DNA from: Bacteroidia bacterium
GTDB lineage: Bacteria > Bacteroidota > Bacteroidia > Flavobacteriales > Schleiferiaceae
Reading direction: 5' to 3'
NCBI GenBank assembly: GCA_030424545.1
Contig: JAUHWL010000008.1
Coordinates: forward strand, 1 to 64,000
Length of the DNA stretch: 64,000 nt
A model generated the notes under the pieces. That model made no database searches. It was not told the DNA's origin and was given only the letters and a program-made list of their open reading frames with translations. Positions 6,130 through 8,158 of this stretch are shown here, one piece after another. Both the position numbers and the translations under genes were made by a program. Each line of letters starts with the position of its first letter. The first letter of the stretch is position 1.

Positions 6130-6831
6130 ATGATAAACAAAGTAATTGAAAATACACAAGAAGCCATTAAAGACCTTGAAAGCGGAATGACCGTGATGTT
6201 TGGTGGATTTGGCTTATGCGGAATTCCAGAAAACGCCATAGAAGCTATACACAAAGCAGGCATAAACAACCTAACGTGCATTAGCAACAATGCAGGAGTA
6301 GATGGTTTTGGCCTAGGCATTTTGCTAGAAAACAAGCAAATGAAAAAAATGATTGCCAGCTACGTGGGAGAAAATGATGAGTTTGAACGCCAAATGCTAA
6401 GTGGCGAGTTAGATGTAGAGTTAATTCCACAAGGCACATTGGCCGAGCGTTGTCGTGCTGCAGGTGCAGGCATACCCGCCTTTTTTACCCCAGCCGGCTA
6501 CGGAACCGAAGTTGCCGAAGGCAAAGAAGTACGCGAGTTTAACGGCAAGCCTCACATTTTAGAGCACGCTTTTCAAGCCGATTTTGCTTTTGTTAAAGCC
6601 TGGAAAGGAGATGAAGCAGGCAACCTAATCTTTAAAGGAACTGCTAGAAATTTTAATCCGCTCATGGCCATGGCCGGTAAAATTACCGTGGCTGAGGTAG
6701 AAGAACTAGTTCCTGCAGGCCAGCTAGATCCCAACCAAATACATACCCCCGGCATTTTTGTAAACCGAATTTTTAAAGGCGAGAAATTTGAGAAACGAAT
6801 AGAGCAAAGGACGGTGAGGGCAAGAGTTTAG
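6130..6831 (+). CDS. scoA: 3-oxoacid CoA-transferase subunit A
   Basis: A 233-residue alpha subunit of a succinyl-CoA:3-ketoacid (or acetoacetate) CoA-transferase. It has the typical N-terminal [15 protein letters not shown] segment and a C-terminus ending [10 protein letters not shown]. With ScoB it moves CoA between succinyl-CoA and acetoacetate in ketone-body, butyrate or branched-chain catabolism in the cytoplasm. The subunit A and B genes are normally adjacent or overlapping. Here they are 664 bp apart because a four-helix-bundle gene with two repeat arrays lies between them. The last residues (ARV after RTVR) may have been altered where the extra DNA joined. Confidence 0.92.
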
Positions 6832-6844
6832 TGTTGGAGGATTG

Positions 6845-6907
6845 GAGACGGGAGACCGGAGACTGAAGACGGGAGACCGAAGACGGAAGACAGAAGTCTG
6901 AAGATAG
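6845..6907 (+). repeat. Left degenerate 7-bp repeat array, unit RAGWCNG (9 units)
   Basis: Nine contiguous heptads in strict register: gagacgg, gagaccg, gagactg, aagacgg, gagaccg, aagacgg, aagacag, aagtctg, aagatag. Eight fit RAGWCNG exactly and the last has one mismatch. Positions 2, 3, 5 and 7 (A, G, C, G) are nearly fixed, while positions 1 (G/A), 4 (A/T) and 6 (any base) vary. The plus strand is purine-rich. The array starts just after the scoA stop codon and ends about 45 bp before the four-helix-bundle gene. Confidence 0.9.
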
Positions 6908-6952
6908 AGCTCATTGTGATGGCAAAATAAAAATTGCATAAAGTGAACACGA

Positions 6953-7315
6953 ATGGAGGCAAAATTTAAATTTGAAAAATTGCGGATTTGGCAAATTTCA
7001 ATGGATTTTGGTGAAGAGCTGAATGAAGTGTCGATGGCGCATTTTCCGGAAAAAGAAAAATTTAACTTAACCTCTCAAATGGTACGTGCGGCAGACTCGG
7101 TAGCGTTAAATATAGCCGAAGGCGCAATTGGGCAAAGTAACCCAGAACAAAAACGCTTTATGAACTATGCAATACGTTCATTAGCCGAAGTAGTAACCTG
7201 CCTGCACAAAGCCAAAAGAAGAAATTATATAGATAAACAGAATTTTGATAAATACTATAGCCAGTCATTCGATTTGATGAATATGATGATTGCCTTTAAA
7301 AACACACTGAATTAA
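6953..7315 (+). CDS. Four-helix-bundle protein (S23 / 23S rRNA intervening-sequence protein family)
   Basis: A 120-residue, almost entirely helical protein. The family signature is in the middle: QMVRAADSVALNIAEGAIGQ with NIAEG at residues 53-57, followed by FMNYAIRSLAEVVTCLHKA. Members of this family are encoded in 23S rRNA intervening sequences of Leptospira, occur as orphan genes in Bacteroidota, and share their fold with the Avd accessory protein of diversity-generating retroelements. Their proposed role is nucleic-acid binding, but no activity is established. Here the gene is centred between two inverted arrays of 7-bp repeats and lies inside the scoA-scoB pair. There is no rRNA and no reverse transcriptase nearby. 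The start ATG gives the expected KFEKLRIWQ opening. Confidence 0.88.
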   Translation: MEAKFKFEKLRIWQISMDFGEELNEVSMAHFPEKEKFNLTSQMVRAADSVALNIAEGAIGQSNPEQKRFMNYAIRSLAEVVTCLHKAKRRNYIDKQNFDKYYSQSFDLMNMMIAFKNTLN

Positions 7316-7380
7316 AAACAAAACAATATTTACATTTTGGTTGATTAATTGGAAAGGTTACGACTAAGATTTTTGGTCCA

Positions 7381-7471
7381 CAGACTCCCGACTCCAGTCT
7401 CCGGTCTTCAGACCCCCGACTTCGGTCTCCGGTCTTCAGTCTCCCGACTCCCGTCTCCCGACTCCAAGCTC
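7381..7471 (-). repeat. Right degenerate 7-bp repeat array, unit RAGWCNG on the minus strand (13 units)
   Basis: Thirteen contiguous heptads in strict register. Read on the minus strand from 7471 they are gagcttg, gagtcgg, gagacgg, gagtcgg, gagactg, aagaccg, gagaccg, aagtcgg, gggtctg, aagaccg, gagactg, gagtcgg, gagtctg. Eleven fit RAGWCNG exactly. This is the same family as the left array but inverted, so a transcript reading through both arms could pair them. The array has no stop codon in the scoB frame, which creates a spurious 49-codon upstream extension of scoB. Confidence 0.9.
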
Positions 7472-7495
7472 TTCAACCCAACAAAAAACAAAACT

Positions 7496-8158
7496 ATGGC
7501 ACTAGATAAAAACGGAATTGCAAAAAGAATAGCCAAAGAAATGCAAAGCGGCTGGTACGTAAATTTAGGAATAGGCATACCCACTTTGGTGGCTAACCAC
7601 ATTCCTGAAGGTATCTCAGTAGAGTTTCAAAGTGAGAACGGAATTTTGGGCATGGGCCCATTTCCGTTTGATGGCGAAGAAGATGCAGACCTAATTAACG
7701 CGGGTAAGCAAACCATTACCGCGTTGCCCGGTGCTGTTTACTTTGATAGCGCCAATAGCTTTGGCATGATTCGCGGGCAACACGTGCAAATGACTGTTTT
7801 GGGCGCCATGGAAGTAGCCGAAAATGGCGACATCGCTAACTGGAAAATTCCAGGTAAGATGGTAAAAGGCATGGGTGGTGCCATGGATTTAGTGGCCAGT
7901 GCCGAGAACATTATTGTGGCCATGACGCACGCCAACAAATACGGAGATTCTAAACTTTTAAGCGCTTGCACCTTGCCTATTACGGGTGTAAAATGCGTAA
8001 AGAAAATTGTAACCGATTTGGCTGTTTTAGAAATTGACCCGAAGGGAAAAGGCTTTGTTTTAAAAGAGCGCGCCCCCGGAGTTTCGGTAGAAGAAATAAA
8101 AGCAAAAACGGCTGGTAACTTAATTGTAGAAGGCGATATTCCGGAGATGGAATTGTAA
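7496..8158 (+). CDS. scoB: 3-oxoacid CoA-transferase subunit B
   Basis: A 220-residue beta subunit partnering ScoA. The start at 7496 (MALDKNGIAKRIAKEM) matches the usual N-terminus of the family. The upstream in-frame extension to 7349 is translated repeat array and was rejected. The catalytic glutamate lies in EFQSENGILGMGP (Glu 47), which forms the covalent CoA thioester intermediate. YVNLGIGIPTLVANH is the usual glycine-rich loop. The pair should act in the cytoplasm in acetoacetate/succinyl-CoA exchange. A terminator-like hairpin follows. Confidence 0.93.
   Translation: MALDKNGIAKRIAKEMQSGWYVNLGIGIPTLVANHIPEGISVEFQSENGILGMGPFPFDGEEDADLINAGKQTITALPGAVYFDSANSFGMIRGQHVQMTVLGAMEVAENGDIANWKIPGKMVKGMGGAMDLVASAENIIVAMTHANKYGDSKLLSACTLPITGVKCVKKIVTDLAVLEIDPKGKGFVLKERAPGVSVEEIKAKTAGNLIVEGDIPEMEL

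Follow-up and report, generated by a model that had tools for sequence, protein, structure and literature searches.

What does a small gene do between two inverted arrays of the same short repeat? The question is raised by a locus in a bacterium of the class Bacteroidia (Flavobacteriales, Schleiferiaceae; assembly GCA_030424545.1). In the stretch analysed here, the first 64,000 nucleotides of contig JAUHWL010000008.1 (hereafter the window), a gene for an S23/IVP-type four-helix-bundle protein is bracketed by tandem heptads of the consensus RAGWCNG. An earlier inspection of the letters, which we call the sequence-only reading, had taken gene and arrays for a defined unit. To our knowledge, no role has been established for S23/IVP proteins since their discovery in 23S rRNA intervening sequences (IVSs). 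Our best explanation, to which we assign a probability of about 0.55, is that the locus represents one copy of a widespread element. Such an element combines an S23 gene with two inverted arrays of a lineage-specific unit and is inserted in sense orientation after the stop codon of an operon gene. It would act at the transcript level in an IVS-like manner, with the S23 protein binding its cognate unit.

We begin with the element in the window (coordinates in Table 1). On its left side, the nine heptads counted in the sequence-only reading are all present and contiguous. The right array is inverted and in strict register, as claimed, although it comprises 12 heptads instead of 13 and ends at 7464, not 7471; the would-be thirteenth heptad (7465-7471, GAGCTTG on the minus strand) deviates from the consensus in its fourth and fifth letters. 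Three RAGWCNG units in a row are matched 13 times in the window and not once in 100 dinucleotide shuffles, and the reversed pattern, used as a control, has no match in the whole genome of this bacterium. The program TRF detects both arrays, with periods of 7, 14, 21 and 28. Over 61 nt the two arms are 82% complementary in inverted orientation. The predicted RNA fold of a transcript covering 6832-7500 is a long stem with the S23 gene in its loop (z = -7.0 against shuffles). The arms enclose a single coding open reading frame (ORF), which carries PF05635 only; no recombinase, nuclease or transposase domain is present in the protein. It scores 104.8 bits against PF05635 (cut-off 33.8) and 97.1 bits against TIGR02436 (cut-off 24). 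Its AlphaFold model (pLDDT 95) consists of four helices, and the nearest solved structures are 2GSC and 2RLD. A TM score of 0.82-0.88 to 2GSC identifies the fold as a four-helix bundle.

Recurrence of this architecture was examined in three sets of S23 loci: 137 from Bacteroidota (same family or phylum), 77 from multiple phyla and 22 from Gammaproteobacteria, the last found with the Xanthomonas Xcc0516 sequence. The multi-phylum set was picked by protein only, with a tightened alignment, and is biased to S23 proteins of the SIPSNIAE type. Since the sets include some orthologues, the loci are not fully independent. Self-similarity was scored in windows over the 300-nt flanks against shuffles, distal regions of the same loci serving as controls. 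For inversion, the upstream flank was compared with the reverse-complemented downstream flank, and the match had to beat the best of 20 shuffles.

Flanks of the Bacteroidota loci display a lag-7 excess of +0.12 on both sides, accompanied by harmonics at lags 14 and 21 but by little signal otherwise, against 0.003-0.004 in distal regions. The inverted match exceeded all 20 shuffles at 89 of the 137 loci, compared with 18 in the direct-orientation control. Corresponding numbers were 60 versus 14 of 77 in the multi-phylum set, where periods of 7 and 8 occur, and 19 versus 4 of 22 in Gammaproteobacteria (lag-7 excess +0.258, distal -0.025). In the three sets pooled, an inverted match score of at least 30 was reached by 113 of 236 loci and by none of 217 distal pairs. 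The unit is mostly 7 bp long; units of 8, 9 and 10 bp also occur (L103, L096, L337, L358). S23 genes themselves are found in 157 of 198 sampled Bacteroidota genomes, with up to 16 per genome. S23 genes without heptad arrays, which the sequence-only reading had named as the finding to overturn it, are not the majority. The idea of a defined unit thus survives, the unit recurs across the family, and the architecture of a gene with inverted arrays is in our judgement practically certain.

The genome of the window contains five S23 genes. Three of the other four have inverted arms or arm-like repeats (TTAGACN, GGTGATA-like, and GTTATAN, the last in L005), and the fifth gene (L004) has a short GTTBAAN array. 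At one locus in the same genome (L002, G000:C21:45024-45341), the S23 gene is interrupted by an internal TAG and the arms are ragged, periods of 7 and 8 being mixed; it looks like a decaying element.

Anatomical rules were drawn from 103 loci with strong arms, where the median element size is 492 nt. The 5' arm starts at a median of 2 nt past the upstream sense stop codon, and 66 of 88 onsets fall within -10 to +20; such a position next to a stop codon may reflect only the narrow room in tight operons. G skew of the 5' arm is positive in 96 of 103 loci and negative in four (10% C versus 29% G). At 114 of 131 and 64 of 75 loci (178 of 206 in total) the S23 gene points the same way as both neighbours, and it is antisense to both at only 8 and 1, respectively. 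Unless the transcript plays a part, or the gene at least needs read-through to be expressed, this orientation bias and the asymmetry between strands are harder to account for. An exception to the rule is provided by L152 (G248) and L162 (G232), whose arms are direct arrays of TCAGCAC with a C-rich sense strand.

Next, we compared units between elements. A register-free unit matrix was used, in place of an earlier five-mer cosine comparison, and pairs at the same site were kept apart from pairs at different sites. An element's own two arms have a unit similarity of 0.88, versus 0.64 against arms of other elements. Among different-site pairs, similarity rises from 0.62 below 30% protein identity to 0.70 at 55-65%. 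The proportion of these pairs with similarity above 0.85 grows from 1% to 13% as protein identity rises, and none of 2000 permutations reaches the observed values. For pairs at the same site, units are unrelated at 40-55% protein identity (0.60-0.65, the background) and shared above 55% (0.90). The element in the window and L059, with 62% identical proteins at different sites, both have GAAGACN-type units, and the CAGTAGY unit is common to L107 of Bacteroidota and L338 of a deltaproteobacterial metagenome-assembled genome. RAGWCNG is the own unit of the element in the window; each S23 lineage has its own, and the consensus fails as a general mark of the family. The unit tracks the protein, not the genomic site. 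This tracking, which holds even across sites, suggests the recognition of arrays by the protein that had been supposed earlier, and we find it rather probable that S23 proteins bind their cognate units. Joint descent of gene and arrays as one mobile unit accounts for the linkage as well as binding specificity does.

Are the arrays then anything more than ordinary products of slippage? Heptameric simple repeats could be frequent in some intergenic regions, with S23 genes merely lying in repeat-prone spacers. Heptameric repeats are indeed over-represented in many bacteria (PMC4692102), solo arrays distant from S23 genes exist, and arrays of orthologues differ by whole units (14 bp between L071 and L072, 49 bp between L048 and L049, 16 bp between L131 and L133). 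Changes between orthologues consist of gain or loss of whole units and of point changes, the pattern that slippage leaves, so that the proposal of a protein diversifying its arrays is unsupported. As the source of the whole arrangement, slippage is nevertheless very improbable, because chance gives neither the same unit inverted on both sides nor units tracking the protein. In 464 kb of the genome of the window there are only five period-7 arrays above threshold. Three of these are S23 arms; the two solo arrays both carry units of resident S23 elements (p ~2e-4 even with the count restricted to intergenic DNA, taken as 10%).

Solo arrays of this genome amount to three of RAGWCNG and about ten of GTTBAAN, and solo arrays are located near gene ends. 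The sequence-only reading had tied RAGWCNG arrays to S23 genes. In its strict form this fails, as the three arrays have no adjacent S23 gene, but their unit does match that of a resident element. Among 88 genomes, triples of TGAGAYN, the unit of the S23 element L048, occur in six of seven g7 genomes and in three g12 genomes; in the one remaining g7 genome, G016, the S23 arms consist of another unit.

Such solo arrays are also the first argument for the main rival of our explanation, which places the action on DNA. Arrays would be tandem end sites, similar to multi-site transposon ends or repetitive extragenic palindromes (REPs). A ring of S23 would bind these ends, an enzyme of the host or one supplied in trans would move the unit, solo arrays would be non-autonomous derivatives and the RNA stem a by-product. 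This is in agreement with the presence of resident units in solo arrays, with the same unit accompanying a related protein across phyla, and with a unit that is common to both arms while the order of its variants is unmirrored. Two pairs of loci (L152/L162 and L140/L165) share homology confined to the element, with unrelated flanks. However, neither a recombinase nor a nuclease domain is present in the 120-aa protein, close copies are mostly orthologues, and a strong sense bias with strand-asymmetric arms is unexpected for a purely DNA-level element. On balance we consider it unlikely. An autonomous insertion sequence is resembled insofar as relatives have an empty counterpart, but a recombinase or transposase gene is lacking.

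The empty counterparts were found upon examination of the host operon. The S23 unit is inserted between co-directional scoA and scoB, a point absent from the sequence-only reading. An empty spacer of 0-90 nt separates scoA and scoB in about 30 genomes of the family for which it was measured (24 nt in the relative L178). With an S23 gene inside, it measures 664 nt in the genome of the window (G000), 610 nt in G030 and 477 nt in G002. This survey covered loci with a scoA match; the apparent gaps of L182 and L193 rest on early-ending scoA alignments, and the long gaps of L209 and L215 are ambiguous. Since the gap is empty in relatives, the unit in the window is an insertion. Compared by eye, the leader preceding scoB looks like the entire spacer of the empty-site relative L178, ACATTACAACAAAAAAAGAAAACG. 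The scoA-scoB element of G030 has a 9-bp unit, about GTTTTAGGN. Occupied spacers with such unlike units indicate that this spacer received or kept different S23 elements in different lineages. Elsewhere, the spacer upstream of a thiolase-like gene holds another S23 element in many genomes of the family (L001, L039, L048, L051, L052, L067); this element is an old, stably kept insertion.

Table 1. Positions in the window of the S23 element, its arms and the surrounding operon genes.
Feature	Positions	Strand	Remarks
scoA, 3-oxoacid CoA-transferase subunit A	6130..6831	+	upstream host-operon gene; 5' array begins 13 nt past its stop codon
5' array, 9 contiguous RAGWCNG heptads	6845..6907	+	purine-rich sense strand; 5' arm of stem
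Best-pairing span of both arms	6844..7458	+	6844-6904 with 7398-7458; S23 ORF in loop
S23/IVP four-helix-bundle gene, 120 aa	6953..7315	+	PF05635, TIGR02436
3' array, 12 contiguous RAGWCNG heptads, strict register	7381..7464	-	inverted relative to 5' array; 3' arm of stem
Short leader, about CAACAAAAAACAAAACT	7478..7495	+	precedes scoB; likely right boundary of insertion
scoB, 3-oxoacid CoA-transferase subunit B	7496..8158	+	downstream host-operon gene

Long retention at one site might also point to a service for the host. In a regulatory cassette, S23 would bind heptads in the operon mRNA in a TRAP-like fashion, one unit per protomer of a pentamer, and would open or close the stem and so tune the downstream gene; solo arrays would be further regulated sites. 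The entries 2GSC and 2RLD, both of solved relatives, contain five chains each, Xcc0516 is described as a homopentamer (PMC4990558), and the commonest array length is 4-6 units, a value limited by the threshold. Equating the pentamer with five units is only a hint, since the score threshold forces at least ~3.5 units and arrays reach ~30. The pooled pN/pS of 0.14 over 17 related S23 pairs means that the protein is maintained by purifying selection, which suits a regulator, as do long-term orthologous retention and solo arrays near gene ends. Array length, however, ranges from 3 to about 30 units. Moreover, the elements are patchily distributed: most relatives have nothing in the scoA-scoB spacer, and the host operons are unrelated, all of which is better accounted for by a selfish element. 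We therefore regard a host regulatory cassette as improbable.

The fold of the protein had suggested a connection to Avd, the four-helix-bundle accessory protein of diversity-generating retroelements. The element would then be such a retroelement or its relic, its Avd-like protein aiding a reverse transcriptase to diversify the arrays. Avd and PF05635 are regarded as homologues (PMC10053308), and the model resembles Avd chains 4DWL and 8UB7 (TM 0.64-0.77, Foldseek E ~0.3). This resemblance stays at the level of the fold. The genome of the window has no protein matching RVT_1, and among 88 genomes of the family RVT_1 is matched in just 8, compared with 42 for PF05635. The arrays are non-coding, and no pair of template and variable repeats was seen. 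With no reverse transcriptase detected, we rejected this explanation, which is hardly credible, for the genome of the window.

Of known systems, the 23S rRNA IVS with an S23p ORF (Coxiella, Leptospira and others) is the nearest. The Coxiella IVS is 428 nt long, similar to the median of elements described here; it has inverted-repeat ends, is excised by RNase III, and contains tandem GACAGAT heptamers upstream of the S23p ORF, in numbers that vary by strain (PMC4990558). Both systems therefore have a sense S23/PF05635 ORF in a transcribed unit, inverted complementary ends and heptamers; an S23p ORF occurs in a subset of IVSs. The differences are as follows. Our elements lie between operon genes, have arms built as arrays of a unit peculiar to the protein, and possess an intact S23 gene that purifying selection maintains; the Coxiella gene is considered to be decaying. 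The element in the window has the inverted stem-forming ends and the sense ORF but is not located in a 23S helix, and Rfam gives no match within 6700-7600. Because these elements sit in operon mRNAs, they are not rRNA IVSs.

The IVS-like reading that we prefer would work as follows. The S23 gene presumably lacks a promoter of its own, and transcription of the host operon would yield one RNA. In it the C-poor 5' arm, which could not fold on itself, would pair with the 3' arm and leave the S23 message in the loop. The stem might serve as a substrate of RNase III, so that the S23 message would be cut out and the flanking cistrons survive, by analogy with S23-bearing 23S rRNA IVSs. S23, a pentameric ring in solved relatives, may bind the cognate tandem units in RNA or in DNA arrays, and through this binding it may tolerate, protect or move its own element. 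Solo arrays could be spread or remnant arms, in a REPIN/RAYT-like manner. For RNA-level processing as the main mode of action we see even chances.

A number of observations weigh against this reading. Near-identical copies mostly sit at orthologous sites, and the compared loci gave no sign of transposition intermediates, target duplications or excision. About one third of S23 loci have no clear arms at the thresholds used, and in genus g58 (L152/L162) both arms run in the same direction. On trimmed arrays of 17 loci, the variants of the unit do not mirror each other significantly between the two arms when compared letter by letter (Wilcoxon p = 0.18). What is conserved is thus the unit and not an exact palindrome, and pairing beyond the common unit is unsupported; the mirrored order had first looked strong with non-array edges included and was dropped after trimming. 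Solo arrays lie far from S23 genes and in both orientations with respect to genes, which a role in mRNA only fails to explain. Genome G021, whose assembly is fragmented, contains about 20 GTTTAAN arrays but yielded no cognate S23 gene. Finally, according to one report the S23p of Coxiella is probably not produced in vivo (PMC4990558).

REPINs and their RAYTs (PMC3116915) offer a second comparison. There, too, a gene is flanked by its own repeat type, which is dispersed over the genome, partly in inverted pairs, and tracks the protein lineage. S23 is, in contrast, a small four-helix bundle and not a Y1 (IS200-like) tyrosine transposase. The repeats here are tandem 7-10-mers instead of REP palindromes, and the gene copy stands in operons in sense orientation. 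The element in the window has dispersed flanking repeats but no Y1 transposase.

Heptamer arrays have been described from other bacteria. Xanthomonas and Nostoc possess intergenic G-rich arrays of GGGAATC and GGGGA(C/T)T, with about 70 inverted pairs in X. campestris; that work treats heptamers in terms of quadruplexes and makes no mention of S23 or four-helix proteins (PMC4692102). If these repeats belong to the same class, an S23 element of the GGGAATC type is predicted. Locus L392:1466-1926 (G652, gammaproteobacterial set) fits, X. campestris itself being outside the sample: an S23 gene, its reading frame apparently shifted near the middle, is flanked by inverted GGGAATC arms. Its neighbours, named from their translations, are the end of an accB-like gene (biotin carboxyl carrier protein) and the start of an accC-like gene (biotin carboxylase). 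The TAACTGA arrays of marine Beggiatoaceae are likewise dispersed intergenic heptanucleotides, yet they are direct, lie upstream of start codons and include only one inverted repeat; S23 is not mentioned (PMC4679880). A search of the open-access literature, subscription papers not included, turned up no link between PF05635 and heptad arrays other than in rRNA.

These parallels allow a wider proposal, which we put forward tentatively, its chances being somewhat short of even. PF05635 proteins may be sequence-specific binders of tandem 7-10-nt units. Together with inverted arrays they may constitute an unrecognised cross-phylum class of elements, with 23S IVSs as a special case, and much unexplained intergenic heptamer content, such as GGGAATC of Xanthomonas, may represent arms or solo arrays. 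The finding of an own short unit around each S23 lineage joins three loose ends, namely rRNA intervening sequences, S23 genes in operons and bacterial heptamer repeats. Such a unit is a concrete candidate ligand, which makes the function of the protein testable, and dozens of natural pairs of protein and unit should make a recognition code, if any, readable.

Several solo arrays are associated with other repeats. In G019 and G020 (L257, L260-L263), TGAGAYN arrays directly adjoin ends of IS3-like elements or dispersed direct repeats of about 120 nt, in the arrangement TTTTTTCTGTGTTCC...array...GTGCGTGC. TGAGAYN arrays may serve as targets for insertion or belong to other repeats. A conserved core of dispersed TGAGAYN arrays, suspected from L039, turned out to be present in L039 alone; the other solo arrays border on various dispersed repeats or IS ends. 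Several GTTTAAN arrays of G021 (L275, L276, L279, L280) form tight head-to-head palindromes within a dispersed repeat that contains GGCGCGGCGT and exists in about 20 copies. In the genome of the window, one spacer (L006:1430-1480, G000:C2:45780-45830) combines two unit types, a GTTBAAN array standing beside a RAGWCNG array.
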